From positions 1 to 9,201 of the forward strand of contig JAJRTK010000121.1 in assembly GCA_024278345.1 (NCBI GenBank): 9,201 bases of DNA, in the 5' to 3' direction. This DNA comes from a bacterium (lineage in GTDB: Bacteria > CSSED10-310 > JAJRTK01). The position numbers were made by a program, and so were the translations under genes. Below, one piece after another: positions 2 through 8,970 of the stretch. How positions within the stretch are numbered: the first letter of the stretch is position 1; the number at the start of each line of letters is the position of its first letter. The notes under the pieces were generated by a model, which ran no database searches, had not been told where the DNA came from, and saw only the letters and a list, made by a program, of their open reading frames with translations.

Positions 2-3000
2 CAGGAGCGACGGGTAGCTGGAAAAATGGACCGCACCGATGGCCTGGGCCCCTGGAGCCAGTGCAGTGGGAGCAGCTTGAGTCGGCCACGAGTCACCCCG
101 ATCAGAGTGACATTTGGTGCAATTCCGGGCAAACTTGGTTCCGTCATGGAAATCGTAACTCCAGGCGCCACCCGGAGTCGTCGTCGTCCCGTCGTGAGCC
201 GAACCGGCGAAATCAGCCTTGCTCACTGCTGGCCGGTTGGCATCGACATCATTCTGGTGGCAAGACATGCAAAGGCCGCCGCTGGCGGCGGCATTGTCAA
301 AATCGGTGGCCGCCGGGGTTCCGGTCGTAATGAACCCATCAGCGTCACGGCTCACGGCGCGGCTGGCTGACGTTTGAGCATCTTCATGGGCATTGTAGCG
401 ATGCTCGGACGTGCCTACGCTGTTGTGAACGTGGTCCGTATGACACATGTTGACGCAGGAGCGATCCGTGGCAAGATTTGCCGAAAGGGGATTGGACCAC
501 GTAAGCCCACTATCGGTAAACGCATCATTCTTTTCGTTGGAAGCCACGGTTCCATCGCCCAAAGTATGCCGGGACGCCTTGGCGGTGACACCCACCATCC
601 CCTTCCAGATCTCCCAATGGCAACCTCGGCAGAACCACTCCCCCTCGCTCTCCTTGGCCTTGAAGCCCGTCTTGTGCGTGTGGCACAGAGTGCAGCGTTG
701 GGCAAAGTGCTTGCCCCCTTCTCCTCCGCCGGTATTCCGGTACCTTGACGTTCCATCAGCATTCTGGGTCTTCGTATGACAAGTTTCACAGATCCCCGCG
801 CCCGTGGCGTCCGCATAGCTATTGGCATCCAGGGGCGTGCTGGGATCAAGGTAGTCCGACTGGGACTGGAACTGAACCGGCCTTGAACCGCTGTTGGGCG
901 TATGAACCGTTTCCCGAGCCAGGAAAATGTTTGTGGTTTTGTGCGGTGTATGGCAAGCCAGGCAATCCACGGCCCAAGAGCCATATTGAACCGACGTGGC
1001 TTGACTTGAGTGGGTCGCGAGGTTGTGGCAGTCCAGGCAAAGCTGGGAACCTGAGGTCCGGCGAAGCAAAGTTCCGCCACCCGCGGGCTTGCCTCCAGAG
1101 TTGTTCACGATAATGGACTGGGAAACCAGGCTCACGGACCCAGTCACATCCGTCGCCTGGAGCGCCAAGTAGTGGGGACCGTTACTCAAGGCCGTCGTAT
1201 CAACATCAATCTCATAGACCGCGCAACCGGTTTGGCCTCGCAGATTGCAGTTGTGACTCGATAAGCCCGTCACCGGAATCGATGGATTTGTCGTGTCCAA
1301 CCCCCAGCGCACGTCAACCTGAGCGATACTATCCAGATCATAGACCTGCACCAGGAACCTGTCTGTTCCTCCCACCACGGCACCATCAGAGGGCGTGCGG
1401 AAAATCAATGTCGGCCCAACTCCATTCCCGCTGCAGGCCGGAGTCGTGAAGGGACCTAAAACCTCGGGGTTCACGCCGGTCACGCCATCGGGGTCCGTCC
1501 AGGTCGCCTGAACCCAATAACTCGTCGAAGCCCCAAGACCTGTGATCAGGCATTGCCTGGGCGAGCCGCCCGTCGCCGCCGAACAGCCCATGGAGCCAGG
1601 CCAGGAATTGGAGGTATTGTACTGGACTTCCGTGAACCCATCTCCGTTGTCATCCCCCGTAAAAGGCATGGTTACCGTGATCTGGCTGCACGAATTCACC
1701 AGGCCGCTACTTCCCGTGATGGTCGTGTCAGTGACGGCACAGAATGGCGTGGTATAGGGACCAATCACCTGGGGATTCGTCCCATTGATTCCATCGAGAT
1801 CGCTAAACGTTACACGGTAGTAGTAGTCAGTGTTTTCCGTCAATCCAGCATCCAAGCAATAGCGAGGACTGATGACACCACCCAGGCCACTACAAAGCGG
1901 CGTCCACGGACCCCCTGCCAATGGACCCTGTTCCACCGCCGTCGTGCTGTCCCCATTAAAGTCGTCCGCAAAATAGGCGGCCACCGTGATTTGATCGCAG
2001 GCATCGATGCTCGCTTGAGGCGGCAGGGTGGTCACACCGCACTCCAGCGTGCTGATGGGCCCGATGACCTGCGGATTCGTTCCGTTGACCCCGTCGTTGA
2101 TATCGTAAAAGGTCACTCGGAAGTAGTAACTCGTCGCGTTGGCCAAGCCGGGGACGATGCACTGCCGGGGGCTTGTTGGGCCCGACACCCCAGTACAAGC
2201 CGGGGTTCCCGGCCAACTGTTCGATGTGTTGTACTCCACGTCCGTGGTGCTGTCATCGTTGGTATCGCCCGTGTAGGGCATCGTGACGGTAATCTGGTCA
2301 CAAGAATCCGCCGACGCCGTCGGAGTTCCCGGGGTGACCGAAGGTTGGTTGCAAACCGGTGTGTTGAAGGGACCGATGACCTGCGGACTCGTTCCATCAA
2401 CCCCGTCGGGATCGGCGTACGTCACCCGATAGTAGTAGGTCGAGGATTCCAACACTGTCCCGTCGATACACTGTCGGGGACTCGCGCCGGCTACATTGCT
2501 GCAGATGGCGACCCAAGAACCGACGCCATCGGGACTCCGATCGAACGTCGTGTCGCCATCGCTATTGGCATCGTTCGTGAACGGCCCTGAGACCGTGATC
2601 TGGTTGCAACCATCCACCGTCCCGGAAGCCGTCCCTGCCACGGTACAGTTGTCCAGCACGATATTGGACACCGTCTGCACCGCCGTTCCCGAACCGATAC
2701 CGTCGAGATCGGCATAGGTCACCTCCACGTCGTACGAAGTGCCGCAAGTCAAGCCGGAAATCGTGTCCGTGTAGGGAGATGCACTGTGAGGCAAATTCGT
2801 CGGAGCCCCCCAGCTTCCGGAACCGCTCACCTGGTACCGGTACGACAGGGTATTGTCGCCATTGTTGTCGTAAGTGTAGGGAGCCGTAATGGCGATGGAA
2901 GGTGTTGCCCCCGCCGTCTGCGTCGCGGTCACCGTGCCCGCCCCCGTGCAGTCGCCGCCAATGGTGATGCCGCTCACCGTCTGCGGGTTCGTGCCGGTCA

Positions 3001-4087
3001 CTCCGTCGGTATCGACGTATGTCACCTCCACGTCATACGTCGCACCATGCACCAGTCCCGTTACCAAGACCACGTAGGGATTCGTGCTATGCCCCACGGA
3101 AACCGGCGCACTCCAGCTTCCGATGATGGTCGGTGTCCGAGTGCGGTACGACAGGGTGTTGTCGCCGTCGGCGTCATCGGTGTAGGGGGCATTGATGGTA
3201 AAACCGTCGCAGCCCGTGGGCGGTACCGTCACCGTGCCCACCGTCGTGCTGTTCACCGCGTCCTGCAGGTGGATGAGGATCTCCGTCTTGTCCGCCAGCT
3301 TGGTGCCGCCGTTATCCACGATCTTGGGCCGCAGATTGTACCACCAGCCATCGGTACCCAACCCAGTCAGACTCATGGAAAAGCGAAACTTCTTCGCCGA
3401 GACCCGACTGACCGTCGCAAATGCCACCCCATCGTAAATCCTATTTTTGGCATAATCCTGCAACCGGAAGCTCGATTGCCCGATGTCCGGTGTCCCGTCG
3501 GTGAAGAGGCTACTGTAGACTTCGCCATAAACCGTGCTTGTGCGAGGAAAAGTATCCTCTTCCACGCTGTAGCCCGAATCGCTGAACGTCTTGATGTAGT
3601 AGGTGGGGGTGGTGCTTCCCACGCGCAAGGAGATCCCCCGTATTTCAAAATCATTGTTCCCGGCGTTATCCTGGAGCTTCCCCTCGAACGCATAGGTCTG
3701 GTTCGACGTATTGGGCGTGGTGAACGATGTGCGATAGCGATAGGGCGAGACCGTGGAGACCTGGGTCCAGGTTCCGTTACTCATGGAATTGCCGCCCAGG
3801 TCCACAACATCCCACTGGTCCTTACCCTGGTTGTCCGGAACCCGGGTCGTGGTGATCTCGATGTAGTACGTCGTGTTCGCCGACAGAAGCGCCGTCTGGG
3901 GAGAGACTTCCGTGCTATAACCCGAATCGCTGTAAATGGCCACGTTGTCCGAGGGATTTTCCGGATAGTCGGCGAAAGCCGGAGCGGCCACCAACAGAAC
4001 GGCCAGCGTTCCCGCAAGGAAACCCAAGTCCGTTACCCGATCTTTCGCTTTTCCAAACGGTGTGTTGGATCGCTTGAACTGGCTCAT
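2..4087 (-). CDS. Giant secreted multiheme c-type cytochrome with six FN3-like repeats, 3' end outside the window
   Basis: The frame is open from the ATG at 4087 to the left edge (1362 codons, no stop), so the C-terminus is missing. Residues 1-39 form a signal peptide with a hydrophobic core and a likely cut at APAFA|D. Residues 40-280 hold two beta modules, each opening with a (Y/F)SDSGYS motif. Residues 284-885 are six tandem FN3-like repeats of about 100 residues, with a repeat-ending Cys at 380, 481, 579, 683, 783 and 885. Residues 890-1000 look like another Ig-type module. The heme region has CxxCH at 1017 (CLDCH), 1042 (CLACH), 1100 (CETCH), 1132 (CTLCH), 1153 (CRGCH), 1273 (CMSCH) and 1323 (CTKCH), plus a CX3CH (CVNMCH) at 1211. 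CxxCH covalently binds heme c in exported proteins. The start follows AGGA at 6 nt and overlaps the upstream stop by 4 bp, suggesting translational coupling. An electron-transfer role at the envelope or outside the cell is inferred; the redox partner is not visible. Confidence 0.92.
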   Translation of the reverse strand, partial: MSQFKRSNTPFGKAKDRVTDLGFLAGTLAVLLVAAPAFADYPENPSDNVAIYSDSGYSTEVSPQTALLSANTTYYIEITTTRVPDNQGKDQWDVVDLGGNSMSNGTWTQVSTVSPYRYRTSFTTPNTSNQTYAFEGKLQDNAGNNDFEIRGISLRVGSTTPTYYIKTFSDSGYSVEEDTFPRTSTVYGEVYSSLFTDGTPDIGQSSFRLQDYAKNRIYDGVAFATVSRVSAKKFRFSMSLTGLGTDGWWYNLRPKIVDNGGTKLADKTEILIHLQDAVNSTTVGTVTVPPTGCDGFTINAPYTDDADGDNTLSYRTRTPTIIGSWSAPVSVGHSTNPYVVLVTGLVHGATYDVEVTYVDTDGVTGTNPQTVSGITIGGDCTGAGTVTATQTAGATPSIAITAPYTYDNNGDNTLSYRYQVSGSGSWGAPTNLPHSASPYTDTISGLTCGTSYDVEVTYADLDGIGSGTAVQTVSNIVLDNCTVAGTASGTVDGCNQITVSGPFTNDANSDGDTTFDRSPDGVGSWVAICSNVAGASPRQCIDGTVLESSTYYYRVTYADPDGVDGTSPQVIGPFNTPVCNQPSVTPGTPTASADSCDQITVTMPYTGDTNDDSTTDVEYNTSNSWPGTPACTGVSGPTSPRQCIVPGLANATSYYFRVTFYDINDGVNGTNPQVIGPISTLECGVTTLPPQASIDACDQITVAAYFADDFNGDSTTAVEQGPLAGGPWTPLCSGLGGVISPRYCLDAGLTENTDYYYRVTFSDLDGINGTNPQVIGPYTTPFCAVTDTTITGSSGLVNSCSQITVTMPFTGDDNGDGFTEVQYNTSNSWPGSMGCSAATGGSPRQCLITGLGASTSYWVQATWTDPDGVTGVNPEVLGPFTTPACSGNGVGPTLIFRTPSDGAVVGGTDRFLVQVYDLDSIAQVDVRWGLDTTNPSIPVTGLSSHNCNLRGQTGCAVYEIDVDTTALSNGPHYLALQATDVTGSVSLVSQSIIVNNSGGKPAGGGTLLRRTSGSQLCLDCHNLATHSSQATSVQYGSWAVDCLACHTPHKTTNIFLARETVHTPNSGSRPVQFQSQSDYLDPSTPLDANSYADATGAGICETCHTKTQNADGTSRYRNTGGGEGGKHFAQRCTLCHTHKTGFKAKESEGEWFCRGCHWEIWKGMVGVTAKASRHTLGDGTVASNEKNDAFTDSGLTWSNPLSANLATDRSCVNMCHTDHVHNSVGTSEHRYNAHEDAQTSASRAVSRDADGFITTGTPAATDFDNAAASGGLCMSCHQNDVDANRPAVSKADFAGSAHDGTTTTPGGAWSYDFHDGTKFARNCTKCHSDRGDSWPTQAAPTALAPGAQAIGAVHFSSYPSLL
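1430..3240 (-). repeat. Six tandem ~100-residue FN3-like repeats within the giant cytochrome
   Basis: The protein encoded here repeats six times with a period of 98-104 residues, measured between the Cys that closes each unit. A typical unit has a C(D/N)QITV-type strand, an Asp/Asn/Gly-rich loop (such as DADGDNT or DFNGDST), an SPRQC(I/L) motif, a YYYRVT(Y/F) strand, a DxDG(V/I)xG loop and a final NPQVIGP strand followed by TPxC. Units 3-6 share SPRQC and NPQVIGP closely. Units 1-2 form a second subtype with GDNTLSYR and YDVEVTY. The acidic loops could bind calcium, and the paired Cys could form disulfides; both are inferences. The fibronectin type III-like assignment rests on length and strand pattern only. 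Confidence 0.85.
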
Positions 4088-5184
4088 GGTCCGTCCTGTG
4101 TCAAAGAGTTGCCGTCAGCGTAGTGCATCCCGTGGCAGGTGAAGCACTGCACATTACCAAAGGAATCGAGAACCAGGTCGTTCGTGGGGTTGCCATCCAT
4201 GCCGGCACCGCCCTGGTCGCCGCCGCTGGCATCCAAGGGTATGCCCCGATCATACCCCCGGAGGTTCACCCCCAAAAGGACACCCACCGGATGACTCCGC
4301 TCGGTCCCATCGTAGGTCTCGATGGCCGTGTGATCCATGACCCGATTGGCATGGCAGTCGCGGCAGAGCTTGCTCCCCGTGGCATTGTCACCATCGTCCA
4401 AGACGACTCGCAAGAAGGGCCAGGCTCCATAGAGCTCCCACCGTTCCCCCACCACGTAGCTTCCCACGCCAAAGGTCACGGTGAGTCCACTGTCCAGGGG
4501 GACATCGACTCCCGCTGGCTGAGCCGGAAACCAACTCACGCCATTGTCTTTGGAGTATTTGAATTGCGCCGTCGTCTCCGTTCCAGCTTGCGTAACCTCC
4601 AGCAAATACCAGGAACCTACTAACCCGCTATAAGCCCCGCCAGAGCTCAGCACTCCCGTGCTTCCCAAAGCCGTCGTCTGTTTCGGCACTCCCGCCCGAG
4701 GCGTCCCGCCCTTGGACGAAGGGTTCAGATGTTGATTGTGGCAGGTGGAGCAGACGATGTTGCCATTGTAGACGCGGGCGCTCATCTTCGCGTCCACCGG
4801 AACCTGCGTGCCCACCGTCGGGTTCACCGCAGCCACGTCGTAGGCATGGGACATTCCACTGGAACCGTTCGCCCGGGCCGCGCTGTCGATGGGAAGATCC
4901 CCCGCAAGCCCCGCGGAATTGTGGCAAGATTGGCAAAGGTTCACATTGGAGTTGGAAGTGGTGATGGCCCCGCCATCGGCTTGGTGGGTCGTGTGGCATT
5001 GGGTCGTACAATCGATGGTCATCCTTTGTCCGGTCCAGTGGGGCGGATCGGATGCCCGAAGCAACGGAGGCGCAGCCGCCAAAAAGAGAAGCCAAGCCGC
5101 GAAAAACCAGTCACCACCCGTTGACATCCAACGCCTGGACCAAGGCGCAATCTCGTCGCGAACATGCTCTGTCGTCGGTCTCAT
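4084..5184 (-). CDS. Exported pentaheme c-type cytochrome with a beta-domain insert
   Basis: A 366-residue protein starting MRPTTEHV. The frame opens further upstream, but I chose the ATG at 5184 because AGGAGG lies 7 nt before it and the ATG overlaps the upstream stop as ATGA. Residues 25-44 form a signal sequence or anchor, with a possible cut at LRA|S. Five heme-binding motifs are visible: CTTQCH (CX3CH) at 59, CQSCH at 84, CSTCH at 145, CRDCH at 274 and CFTCH at 347. The layout recalls the doubled-CxxCH cytochromes common in Geobacter-type bacteria. Between hemes 3 and 4, residues about 185-255 form a heme-free, beta-rich stretch with FKYSKDNGVSW and DSGLTVTFGVGSYVVGERWEL, resembling a beta module found in bacterial surface and tail-like proteins. 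It sits between the NHL/ASH protein and the giant cytochrome gene, which also begins with an ATGA overlap. It is probably a periplasmic or extracellular electron carrier; its partner is unknown. Confidence 0.9.
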   Translation of the reverse strand: MRPTTEHVRDEIAPWSRRWMSTGGDWFFAAWLLFLAAAPPLLRASDPPHWTGQRMTIDCTTQCHTTHQADGGAITTSNSNVNLCQSCHNSAGLAGDLPIDSAARANGSSGMSHAYDVAAVNPTVGTQVPVDAKMSARVYNGNIVCSTCHNQHLNPSSKGGTPRAGVPKQTTALGSTGVLSSGGAYSGLVGSWYLLEVTQAGTETTAQFKYSKDNGVSWFPAQPAGVDVPLDSGLTVTFGVGSYVVGERWELYGAWPFLRVVLDDGDNATGSKLCRDCHANRVMDHTAIETYDGTERSHPVGVLLGVNLRGYDRGIPLDASGGDQGGAGMDGNPTNDLVLDSFGNVQCFTCHGMHYADGNSLTQDGP

Positions 5185-7784
5185 CGGCAGCTCCTCCTTT
5201 GCGCGGCCACTAGCCCCAGTGCTCCAAGCAGCAGGATCAGGAAGAACAGGCTCCAAGGCGCCTGGCCGATAACTTCCACGGCCCCGGGTAAGGCCGTTCC
5301 CTGTAGCGTGACCACCAGGGGGCTGTCGCCCACATTGCTCGGCGCCTCAAGAAAGGCCGTCCTGACACCTTCCTGGTTCGGTTGAAAAACGATTTCCACG
5401 GAACAGGCTTTGGTGGAAAGCAACTCGCTCCCGCTGCAGGTCTCCTGCTGGATGGCAAACTCCCCCGCACCATCCCCTGAAAGACTCAAAGCACCGATCT
5501 GCAGTGGCTCCGTCCCTCGATTCAACAGCAGCAGATTCGACGGTACCGAGCCGTTGCCCACGGCTAAATCCCCGAAATCGATCAAGTCCGGACTGGAAGC
5601 GATCTTCAAACCACCTCCTCGTCCCTGCAACCCCACAGTGTGCGGACTCTCCGTCACACTGCTCACAATCACCAGGGCCCCGGAAGAAAACTCGCCGATC
5701 TCTCCAGCCGAAAACTGAAGATCCACGCTACAGCTCTCCCCGCTCACCAGGGTTTCCCCACAACCATTCTGTAAGGTAAACGGCCCTGAAACAGAGAAGC
5801 CGTAGAGCGACAGCGGCAAGGTTCCTCCGTTTCTTAGCACCAGACTCATCGGGCTGCTCACCGTGCGAGCCGGCGGATCTCCAAAATCCAAGAAAGGATC
5901 CGATAGATCCAAGAATGCCGGTGTCTGGCCAGTTCCTGAGAGGGCCACCGAAAGCTGAGTCGATCTCAAGCTCGTCTCTATTCTCAAGGAACCCGTGGCC
6001 ACCCCGGCACTGGTGGGAACAAAGTTCACCCACAGACGGCAACTTGCTCCTGGATCCAGGTAAGCACGGCAGTCATTGCTCTGGCGAAATGGACCCGTGA
6101 CCCTGACCCGGTGGATCCCAAGAAACGCATCGCCACTATTCTGAAGGAGAACTTCCCGCGAAGCTCCGGAAACTCCCACCACTTGCTCTCCAAACGCCAC
6201 GGAGCTTTCCGACAAGAGAGCCTTGGGCACGGGCACCTGGGAAGATGGTAGAGCCAGCCGGCGAAAGACCTGCAAGCTCGGTCCATTGAGCGAAGCGATG
6301 ACGAAGCGGCCATAGGAATCCACCGGCAACAGCCCCGCCGGAGTCTTGACCTCGCCAATCTCGCTGCCATAGGTCCCGATGGTATCCCGGAAGCTGCCGT
6401 CTCCATTGAACGCAAGAACCCAATCCTGGTACACGTCGCTGGCGTAGATGGTCCCATCACTGTCCACGGCGACGTCATCCAGTTGCACGAACTCCCCCAC
6501 ACCGCCGCCCAAACCGCCGAAGCTGTTTTGCAGAGTGCCCGCCAGATCGAAAACCTTGATCAGCCCATGGCCACTGTCCGCCACCACCAGTTCACCCGTT
6601 GGCGTGATCGCCAAACCCTGCGGGCTCTTGAGCTGCTCCGGCCCGTCGCCCGTCGATCCAAACGACGAAAGAACCGCGCCCGTCTCGTCATAGACAACGA
6701 CCCGACCGGCTCCTCGAATCAACGCCGCATACCGATGGCGAACCATGTCCACCGCCACGTCGGCAATATCGCCCCCGGATACGGCTGCCTCCAAGGCCAT
6801 GAACGTATCGCCATTCCGCTCCACAACGGCTAAGCCACCCGCCATTCCCACCAACAACCGATCATTCCAATCGACGGCAACGCTTGTGACCTTCTCCAGG
6901 GGGAGGCGATAGATGAAAGCGCCCGTCACAAGATGAACCACTTCGAGACCCAACTGATCCACAACGTAGACCTGGCCAAGGGAATCTACTGACAAACGGG
7001 AAGGCGCCGCCAGAAATGCCGAGCGAAGACGCCTTTCGGGCCAGAGGTCGAAAACCGAAATCGCCACTGTCTCCTGCGCCACACCAGCCCATGGATCGGA
7101 GACCTTGCAGGTAATGGTCGCCTGCCCTGGTGTCTGCGACACGAATTCGGCGGCGCCATCCACCGTGGGTGTCACGGTTCCAAGATCGCTCGACCACGAA
7201 TAAGTCAAGGGATCGCTGTCGGGATCCGATGCGGTGCAACTCAACGCCGACATGTCACCGCTGCCCACCGAAGTCGGATCCGCCGTCAACGAACTCACTA
7301 CCGGCGGCTGATTCGGAGTCGATGTTACCAGGATGGTGACCTGATCCGACGCCGTCAACGGCGTCCCGAAACAGAGACTCCCGCCATTCTCCGAGATCTC
7401 CACCGAAACCGTGTAACTCATCTCCACCGTAGGCGCCTGCCAATCAGCGGTCGCCGTGTAAGGCGAACCGTTCACCCCGTTGTCGATGACCGTGAAACTC
7501 CCTCCATCCGCCGTCCATACTGTCCAATCAGCCCGAATGTAAGTGCCGCAACAAGCTGTTCCACTACAGTTGGCGTCGTAATCGGGGTCGTGCGCGCTCA
7601 GCGACAAGTTCACGGTCCCGCCTGGTACAACCACCAGGGTCGTGGCTGAAAAATCGTCGATCACGGGCGCCTGTCCCCCGTGCGCGACCATTGGCGTCCA
7701 GACAGCTATCGCCACGAGCCCGGCCAGGGCGACGAAACTTCTTTTCCAACGACGCTCCGGAACTCCAGAACGGCGTTTCGCCAT
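5181..7784 (-). CDS. Surface-anchored protein with PKD/Ig-like, NHL beta-propeller and three ASH-like domains
   Basis: An 867-residue protein from ATG 7784, which has GAGG 6 nt upstream; a GTG at 7799 would add five residues and cannot be excluded. Residues about 16-39 form a signal peptide. Residues 40-155 and 160-244 are Ig/PKD-like, the second with TASDPDSDPLTYSW typical of such domains. Residues about 257-508 carry NHL-propeller motifs, for example SPQGLAITPTGELVVADSG and LDDVAVDSDGTIYASD. Residues about 520-617, 623-721 and 725-830 are three ASH/Hydin-like modules, each with a (V/L/I)xFG opening, a Cys pair and a closing (L/V)xGxG-type strand. Residues about 842-861 form a membrane helix followed by QRRSCR, resembling C-terminal sorting tails. 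No heme motif is present. NHL propellers usually bind proteins or other ligands, so a scaffold or docking role for the cytochromes encoded downstream is inferred. The stop overlaps the next start by 4 bp (ATGA). Confidence 0.9.
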   Translation of the reverse strand: MAKRRSGVPERRWKRSFVALAGLVAIAVWTPMVAHGGQAPVIDDFSATTLVVVPGGTVNLSLSAHDPDYDANCSGTACCGTYIRADWTVWTADGGSFTVIDNGVNGSPYTATADWQAPTVEMSYTVSVEISENGGSLCFGTPLTASDQVTILVTSTPNQPPVVSSLTADPTSVGSGDMSALSCTASDPDSDPLTYSWSSDLGTVTPTVDGAAEFVSQTPGQATITCKVSDPWAGVAQETVAISVFDLWPERRLRSAFLAAPSRLSVDSLGQVYVVDQLGLEVVHLVTGAFIYRLPLEKVTSVAVDWNDRLLVGMAGGLAVVERNGDTFMALEAAVSGGDIADVAVDMVRHRYAALIRGAGRVVVYDETGAVLSSFGSTGDGPEQLKSPQGLAITPTGELVVADSGHGLIKVFDLAGTLQNSFGGLGGGVGEFVQLDDVAVDSDGTIYASDVYQDWVLAFNGDGSFRDTIGTYGSEIGEVKTPAGLLPVDSYGRFVIASLNGPSLQVFRRLALPSSQVPVPKALLSESSVAFGEQVVGVSGASREVLLQNSGDAFLGIHRVRVTGPFRQSNDCRAYLDPGASCRLWVNFVPTSAGVATGSLRIETSLRSTQLSVALSGTGQTPAFLDLSDPFLDFGDPPARTVSSPMSLVLRNGGTLPLSLYGFSVSGPFTLQNGCGETLVSGESCSVDLQFSAGEIGEFSSGALVIVSSVTESPHTVGLQGRGGGLKIASSPDLIDFGDLAVGNGSVPSNLLLLNRGTEPLQIGALSLSGDGAGEFAIQQETCSGSELLSTKACSVEIVFQPNQEGVRTAFLEAPSNVGDSPLVVTLQGTALPGAVEVIGQAPWSLFFLILLLGALGLVAAQRRSCR
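5189..5194 (-). promoter_or_regulatory. Shine-Dalgarno of the pentaheme cytochrome gene, inside the upstream CDS
   Basis: AGGAGG is read on the minus strand within the last codons of the NHL/ASH gene, close upstream of the ATG at 5184. It fixes the start of the cytochrome at MRPTTEHV rather than at the upstream in-frame codons. Because it is translated as part of the previous gene, it supports reinitiation-type coupling across the ATGA overlap. Confidence 0.75.
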
Positions 7785-7834
7785 TTTCTGCCTCAACACT
7801 TTTTTGACCCTTTCCGGTTTTTCCGCCAGCCCCG

Positions 7835-7897
7835 TCAGATCTCCACCGAAAACAAGACCAGCCCTTTTATCAGTTTGTCTTTGGCATCTCTCCCCAT
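7835..7897 (-). CDS. Possible 20-residue leader or small protein
   Basis: An ATG at 7897 opens a 20-codon frame reading MGRDAKDKLIKGLVLFSVEI, ending in TGA about 50 nt before the NHL/ASH gene. GGAGG lies 7 nt upstream of the ATG, one of the best ribosome-binding sites in the window. The peptide has a charged head and a short hydrophobic tail. It shows no run of a single amino acid and no attenuator hairpin overlapping it, so a classical leader-peptide role is not supported. A short frame with a good Shine-Dalgarno can arise by chance in purine-rich sequence. Confidence 0.25.
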   Translation of the reverse strand: MGRDAKDKLIKGLVLFSVEI

Positions 7898-7967
7898 TAA
7901 CACCCCTCCACCGACTGACAAACCCGATCCCTTTTCACCTCAGAAACGCGCCACGCCAGGCCCCTTG

Positions 7968-8345: not shown

Positions 8346-8378
8346 GAGGAGCCTACGAGGAGCCTACGAGGAGCCTAC
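8346..8378. repeat. Three perfect tandem copies of an 11-bp unit at a gene's 3' end
   Basis: GAGGAGCCTAC occurs three times head to tail at 8346-8356, 8357-8367 and 8368-8378, with no mismatch. The third copy covers the TAG stop (8375-8377) of the minus-strand zinc-ribbon gene. Each copy reads GTAGGCTCCTC on the coding strand, so changes in copy number would alter only the 3' untranslated part. Confidence 0.9.
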
Positions 8379-8791
8379 AATGGGGCCTTCTTCAACCTGT
8401 GGTAACGCACGATGTCCCGGAGCAGGGGGGCCACAGCCCACAGAGGCGCAATCCCAAAGAAGATCAGGGCGAACTTAGCAATTTCTTGAGTCGTCAACAG
8501 TTGCAAAGCCGCCCCAGCCACCCCAGCCAGCACCAGCGCCGCCAACAACCCTTTGAGGACTTGCCAGGTCAATGCCCAAAGCTTCTTCAAAAACCCCATC
8601 CGCGCCCAACCCACCAAACCGGTCTCAAAACCCCTGAGACACTGCTTACAGCGGGCCTGGGTTACTCCGTAAGTGCTGCCCTCGAAATGTCGGAGCCGCG
8701 CATTACAGTGGGGACAATGACAAGTTTCCCTATCGAAAAACCGCGTACCTCGCCGGCGAACCATCTTTCGCCGCGACCTTTGCCTGCCCAT
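8375..8791 (-). CDS. Small zinc-ribbon-like membrane protein of unknown function
   Basis: A 138-residue protein starting MGRQRSRRK. I chose the ATG at 8791 because GGGAGG lies 7 nt upstream; the frame extends to 8908 without a better site. The N-terminus is very basic (residues 3-17). C26-x2-C29 and C48-x2-C51 form a zinc-ribbon-like pair, with extra Cys24 and His25 beside the first knuckle. Two hydrophobic segments follow at about 79-99 and 104-124, with a basic tail (YHRLKKAPL). The likely topology puts the zinc-binding head and the tail on the same side, probably the cytoplasm. I do not recognise the family. It is encoded on the same strand as the cytochrome operon but is separated from it by about 590 bp, so a shared function is not implied. 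Confidence 0.75.
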   Translation of the reverse strand: MGRQRSRRKMVRRRGTRFFDRETCHCPHCNARLRHFEGSTYGVTQARCKQCLRGFETGLVGWARMGFLKKLWALTWQVLKGLLAALVLAGVAGAALQLLTTQEIAKFALIFFGIAPLWAVAPLLRDIVRYHRLKKAPL

Positions 8792-8829
8792 GAGAAAGCC
8801 TCCCTTCGTTTCCATCCAAACCTGCAAGC

Positions 8830-8835
8830 AGTGTA
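8830..8835 (-). promoter_or_regulatory. Candidate -10 hexamer for the zinc-ribbon gene
   Basis: TACACT on the minus strand lies about 40 bp upstream of the ATG at 8791 and matches TATAAT at four of six positions. The hexamer 16 bp upstream reads TCGAAA, a poor -35. The assignment rests on position and sequence only. Confidence 0.25.
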
Positions 8836-8970
8836 ACAGAAACCGCCAGCTTTTCGATCCTGCTTGCATTCCGGTCGTGTCGCTCGCAGCCGCTCGCGCC
8901 ACTCCCAAGCTCCACCCCTGGCTCCAGCGCCCACCGCCATCCTAAAACCCACCGGCACTCCACACTCGAA

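Follow-up and report, generated by a model that had tools for sequence, protein, structure and literature searches.

The window, a complete contig of 9,201 bases (C40) in a genome of 6.06 Mb in 550 contigs, carries three open reading frames on its minus strand, here called genes A (7784-5181), B (5184-4084) and C (4087 to beyond position 2). A preliminary description of this DNA had proposed a three-gene operon with an ATGA overlap at both junctions, and this is borne out by the open frames and by the overlaps at 5184-5181 and 4087-4084 (Table 1); a strong ribosome-binding sequence for gene B (AAGGAGGAG) lies within gene A. The overlaps support an operon with predicted coupled translation, and by themselves are no demonstration of fixed stoichiometry. 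Export signals of all three products were judged by eye. Because the window is the whole contig and ends by assembly, gene C is incomplete and any further operon genes to its left lie out of view; upstream of gene A, neither a promoter nor a terminator consensus was found. Also present are a minus-strand ORF (8375-8908) encoding 177 aa with zinc-ribbon-like cysteines and a hydrophobic stretch, which matches no family over cut-off, and, at the right end of the contig (9036-9201), a dispersed repeat of ~165 bp with at least 40 genome copies (40 scored from 410 first-look candidates), mostly 82-98% identical and many at contig ends, for which no Rfam match was found.

Table 1. Features of the three-gene locus and of related loci on other contigs of the same genome.
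Feature	Position	Strand	Basis
Gene A, 867 aa, predicted exported surface protein, heme-free	5181..7784	-	ORF; NF012200 5.7e-38, PF01436 2.8e-13
A residues ~37-245, Ig/PKD-like domains (Big_9)	7050..7676	-	PF17963 7.2e-7; PKD 0.004
A residues ~250-512, NHL beta-propeller	6249..7037	-	PF01436; ScyF-type NHL 4.2e-18; DUF5128
A residues ~516-832, three ASH-type Ig (choice-of-anchor-D) domains	5289..6239	-	NF012200 in three stretches; PF22544, PF22073, PF15780
A residues 841-867, C-terminal hydrophobic tail + RR	5184..5264	-	sequence APWSLFFLILLLGALGLVAAQRRSCR
ATGA overlap, A stop / B start	5181..5184	-	sequence read
Gene B, 366 aa, pentaheme cytochrome	4084..5184	-	5 heme motifs; five-heme core common to aligned relatives
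B residues ~165-256, beta-domain insert between hemes 3 and 4	4417..4692	-	alignment; confident beta strands in model
ATGA overlap, B stop / C start	4084..4087	-	sequence read
Gene C, at least 1362 aa, incomplete at contig end	2..4087	-	ORF
C residues ~40-995, non-heme arm	1103..3970	-	fn3 4.2e-4 (below Pfam cut-off); repeats read from sequence
C residues 1005-1362, start of cytochrome c7-type heme domain	2..1075	-	PF14522 2.1e-6
Contig C37 (L104), compact cluster: 21-heme cytochrome, propeller, tetraheme, barrel-like protein, propeller (in order)	1132-7912		
Contig C56 (L106), OmcE-like tetraheme adjoining convergent UetJ-like cytochrome that runs off contig end	9883-11828		
Contig C367 (L103), second propeller + 16-heme cytochrome pair, GTGA overlap	326-7677		

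Gene A contains no CXXCH motif. Its earlier reading as an NHL propeller followed by three ASH-like domains and a C-terminal membrane tail agrees with the Pfam and NCBIfam matches and with the tail sequence. The propeller is the portion of A common to relatives, whose BLAST matches fall at residues 251-517, and it matches TRIM/Thin NHL structures (2.4e-32). The hydrophobic tail finishes in RRSCR, in a layout resembling that of an exosortase-type sorting tail; curated sorting-tail models gave no match to it.

Gene B is a paired-CXXCH protein, and cytochrome c7/paired-CXXCH domains are backed by Pfam and NCBIfam in the cytochromes. Its heme sites comprise CXXCH motifs at residues 84, 145, 274 and 347 and a CX3CH at residue 59, a position occupied in the alignment by a normal CXXCH in nearly all relatives. 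Motif spacings in the minimal pentaheme core are ~24, 62, 25 and 53 residues; in B the gap between hemes 3 and 4 is 129 aa, compared with ~25 aa in the minimal core. Extra sequence, partly recognisable as a beta domain, enlarges an inter-heme gap that differs between lineages: 3-4 in B, 2-3 in many relatives and 4-5 in two relative loci, L049 and L054. In an AlphaFold2 model of B built with 27 relatives (mean pLDDT 53) the beta insert alone is confident, and a fold search with this model was left aside because the heme parts are unreliable. Sequence searches of the PDB with B and C as single proteins gave nothing meaningful.

Gene C begins with a long arm in which N-terminal domains are followed by approximately six fibronectin-type repeats with Dx[DN]xDG-like loops. 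Its visible heme sites number eight, seven CXXCH and one CX3CH at residues 1017-1327, within the last 360 visible residues, and the motif counts (none in A, five in B, at least eight in C) are those originally claimed. The heme domain is 40-43% identical to fused proteins of Binatota. Judging from split relatives, in which complete C has 13-14 hemes, the complete protein here probably has as many, so that five or six would lie beyond the contig end. No contig-end overlap that could supply the remainder of C was found among the genome contigs compared; the terminal heme protein of C56 was considered as the rest of C and rejected, being UetJ-like and not C. Residues 1-419 of C have a paralogue on contig C302 (46% identity). 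The paralogue (L004, 4137-7103) is a heme-free protein of 988 aa with proline/threonine repeats and a C-terminal membrane tail of its own.

Comparison with relatives indicates that one heme chain is divided between B and C. The two are a single protein in Binatota (L049), Deltaproteobacteria (L054), Bacteroidota and others, and in these fusions the end of B, CxxCHxxHYADS, runs into the start of the C heme domain, GDGxLLRR...CxxCH, placing the last heme of B directly before the first heme of C. This join motif is present in ten fused proteins (two each in L049, L054 and L041, and one each in L051, L056, L062 and L036), and exactly five CXXCH motifs precede it in all ten; L031, L040 and L028, in which the join motif was not found, were left out of the fusion count. 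After the join, 14-15 heme motifs are present in the closest long fusions (L049, L054_3); in relatives with separate genes, B has five hemes and a complete C has 13-14. Wherever a stand-alone pentaheme B gene has a visible downstream neighbour, a C-like gene follows (5/5), directly in L022, L023, L024 and L066 and after one intervening ORF in L057; in L068, C-like ORFs come after a propeller-fused B. The simplest mechanical reading is that B would dock onto C, keeping the heme chain continuous. The suggestion that the three proteins form a physical complex is thus supported by B-C fusions in many lineages, and its extension to the propeller protein by the Phycisphaerae locus L062, in which propeller, B and C are joined in one chain of 1075 residues with no internal membrane segment. 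Apparent A-B fusions in L054 and L068 were rejected as clean fusion evidence because a tail of hydrophobic residues and then another signal-like stretch separate the parts. These in-frame propeller-cytochrome frames with tail and signal-like linker lie at 2630-6307 and 6624-14474 of L054 and at 5565-9851 of L068.

A scan of GTDB genomes with B yielded 46 loci, to which genome G021 adds one, for a total of 47 relative loci, distributed among Acidobacteriota, Nitrospirota, KSB1, Calditrichota, Bacteroidota, Chlorobiota, Binatota, Deltaproteobacteria, Gammaproteobacteria, Verrucomicrobiota, Planctomycetota (Phycisphaerae) and unclassified bacteria; the propeller/cytochrome set recurs in approximately ten phyla. 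At the 42 testable loci, those not cut by a contig edge, a propeller gene is directly upstream of or fused to the lead B-like gene in 35. By comparison, 26 of 284 control ORFs (the remaining ORFs of 150 aa or more) have such a propeller. An adjacent propeller is absent in seven relative loci. Scattered homologues, named in the preliminary description as an outcome that would refute it, are hence not what is observed, and the operon is conserved. Four-base overlaps occur at these junctions also in L022, L035, L043, L058, L064 and L068. An OmcE-like tetraheme is encoded in 20 relative loci, ResB/CcsA heme-attachment genes come after the cytochromes in L066, L049 and L064, and a peptidyl-prolyl isomerase is encoded near four relatives and not on this incomplete contig. 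BLAST neighbour counts for the UetJ-like and 21-heme genes were set aside as inflated by general multiheme similarity. B and C were absent from the seven genomes of the same phylum in which they were sought; gain by transfer or repeated loss is therefore possible.

The preliminary description had also regarded the operon as unlike the porin-cytochrome type, there being no porin gene within it as seen. This is not supported: the contig spans 9.2 kb, which accounts for the absence of a porin, and a barrel-like protein of ~650 residues is encoded in ten relative loci. An AlphaFold2 model of the barrel of L047 has ~30 long strands (mean pLDDT 74), and Foldseek matched it to outer-membrane barrels, MtrB among them, with low TM-scores; the model shows the predicted barrel type, not the family. 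In L043 the run consists of a barrel-like protein, a propeller, an 8-heme protein, a 218-aa protein, a propeller and a B-type cytochrome. In the genome studied here a related barrel-like protein (609 aa) is encoded beside heme proteins on C37 and is 28-30% identical to those of L043 and L052, the two barrel groups being weakly related by profile comparison (E 1.9e-4). The tetraheme of C56 matches OmcE (PDB 7tfs) at 3e-26, and the 16-heme cytochrome of C367 is 51% identical over ~890 residues to a KSB1 protein (L025). There is no barrel on the window contig, and its tie to C37 and C56 is that of belonging to the same genome.

Surface display of the propeller protein, also proposed earlier, is supported by predicted sorting signals. 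Type IX sorting domains end the propeller partners of L026, L031, L034, L041, L045 and L053, which belong to Bacteroidota, Chlorobiota and Calditrichota; TIGR04183 is over cut-off in five of these six partners (L053 scores 22.9 bits versus 23), and PF18962 is over cut-off in that of L053. Ig/PKD domains are also present in the propeller partners of L041, L034 and L053, a layout like that of A, and an exosortase family member (PF09721, over cut-off) is encoded on contig C373 of the same genome. The membrane tail of A is not conserved in partners of other lineages, although sorting to the surface seems to be a conserved requirement. These signals bear on an alternative in which the module is periplasmic, the propeller and cytochromes constituting an electron reservoir or a trans-periplasm wire that feeds a barrel conduit. 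A propeller/two-cytochrome core was placed in the periplasm in 2017 by Skennerton (PMC5539420) on the basis of signal peptides and the lack of membrane helices, and some similar cytochromes of D. ferrophilus are predicted to be periplasmic; however, type IX tails, borne by the propeller partners of six relatives, deliver proteins beyond the outer membrane, the tail of A is sorting-like and an exosortase is encoded in the genome, so that a periplasmic location is unlikely.

Several elements of the arrangement have been described in other systems. A propeller, two large cytochromes and a peptidyl-prolyl isomerase make up the published core operon of SEEP-SRB1, Desulfofervidus and others (Skennerton 2017, PMC5539420); Oet conduits combine a porin with the fibronectin-bearing cytochrome OetF (Murali 2023, PMC10553843); the undecaheme electron transfer complex, Uet, includes NHL proteins (PMC10734462); and the D. 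ferrophilus clusters DFE_0448-0451 and DFE_0461-0465, which encode multiheme cytochromes and propeller proteins, are implicated in extracellular electron exchange (PMC9769857, PMC8322314). The present arrangement is therefore a variant of known extracellular electron conduits of the Oet/Uet-like kind. It shares with the Oet and Skennerton operons a propeller-fold protein beside two multiheme cytochromes, all exported (here judged by eye), and with Oet the fibronectin domains in one cytochrome (OetF), linked there to a porin conduit; it differs in heme number, 16 and 26 in those operons versus five and at least eight (C being incomplete) here, and, as compared by description, in the ASH domains and membrane tail of its propeller protein. 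As in Uet, NHL proteins, 11-heme and tetraheme cytochromes and a barrel recur beside the relatives, and similar genes are found on C37 and C56, whereas the propeller and B/C pair form an extra unit, located here on another contig than these. The likeness to the D. ferrophilus clusters, multiheme cytochromes with propeller proteins, is likewise by description. As for MtrCAB, the predicted barrel of relatives resembles outer-membrane barrels including MtrB, but B and C do not belong to the MtrA/MtrC family: their NCBIfam scores are far under the cut-offs (26 bits for B with the MtrA-type model TIGR03508, cut-off 192), no MtrC-family match to C was found with NCBIfam, and there is no barrel on the contig. 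In the part of the literature searched, no description was found of where exactly the heme chain is split, of the constancy of the five-heme unit, or of propeller partners whose sorting tails depend on the lineage.

It is improbable that B and C polymerize to form a cytochrome nanowire capped or anchored by A. The B profile matches OmcE and OmcS weakly (1.7e-6 to 4e-5), through local heme motifs only, and homologues of the Geobacter OmcE filament protein are encoded near relatives and on C56; B and C likewise resemble OmcE at the heme-motif level only, the OmcE-like gene encodes a separate protein, and the subunits of known filaments are short and uniform, unlike the single B-C chain, which is split in two and carries large inserts and arms of varied kinds. 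Despite the large Ig and fibronectin-type portions, it is equally doubtful that the cytochrome acts as an adhesin or redox enzyme at the surface and not as part of a conduit, as the recurrent linkage to barrel, OmcE-like and ResB/CcsA genes and the long heme chains favour conduction.

The best explanation, which we consider probable, is an Oet/Uet-like system for extracellular electron transfer in which A, B and C make up the arm at the cell surface, the cytochrome being split and bearing a fibronectin-type arm. Gene order, heme counts, the B-C join of the fusions, the association with propellers and the existence of a barrel-like gene in this genome are read from sequence; we infer that the proteins dock, that they lie at the surface of this organism and that electrons flow through them: B (five hemes) and C (probably 13-14) would dock end to end, the last heme of B beside the first of C, forming a conductor of ~18-19 hemes; A would be exported, and its C-terminal tail would keep it at the cell surface, with its propeller binding the cytochrome and its Ig/ASH domains lifting or positioning it; and the fibronectin-type arm of C would extend outward or to neighbours. 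Electrons might then move, in either direction, between the B-C conductor and a barrel/cytochrome conduit encoded elsewhere (C37, C56), the target or source being a mineral, a partner cell or an OmcE-like filament. More tentatively, with less than even confidence, the arrangement may represent a modular surface "electron mast" found in approximately ten phyla, in which a long heme chain is split after a conserved five-heme unit, the polypeptides re-join by docking and are held by a propeller, and each lineage applies its own sorting (exosortase-like here, type IX in Bacteroidota), as a surface extension of barrel conduits.

The analysis turns a vague association of propellers with nearby cytochromes into a testable architecture consisting of a pentaheme unit, an exact split point and a propeller partner bearing signals for sorting to the surface, and natural single-chain fusions are available for expression and structure solving. 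If correct, it would suggest a role for some NHL proteins that occur dispersed in Oet/Uet clusters, and would extend this kind of conduit to poorly known phyla.
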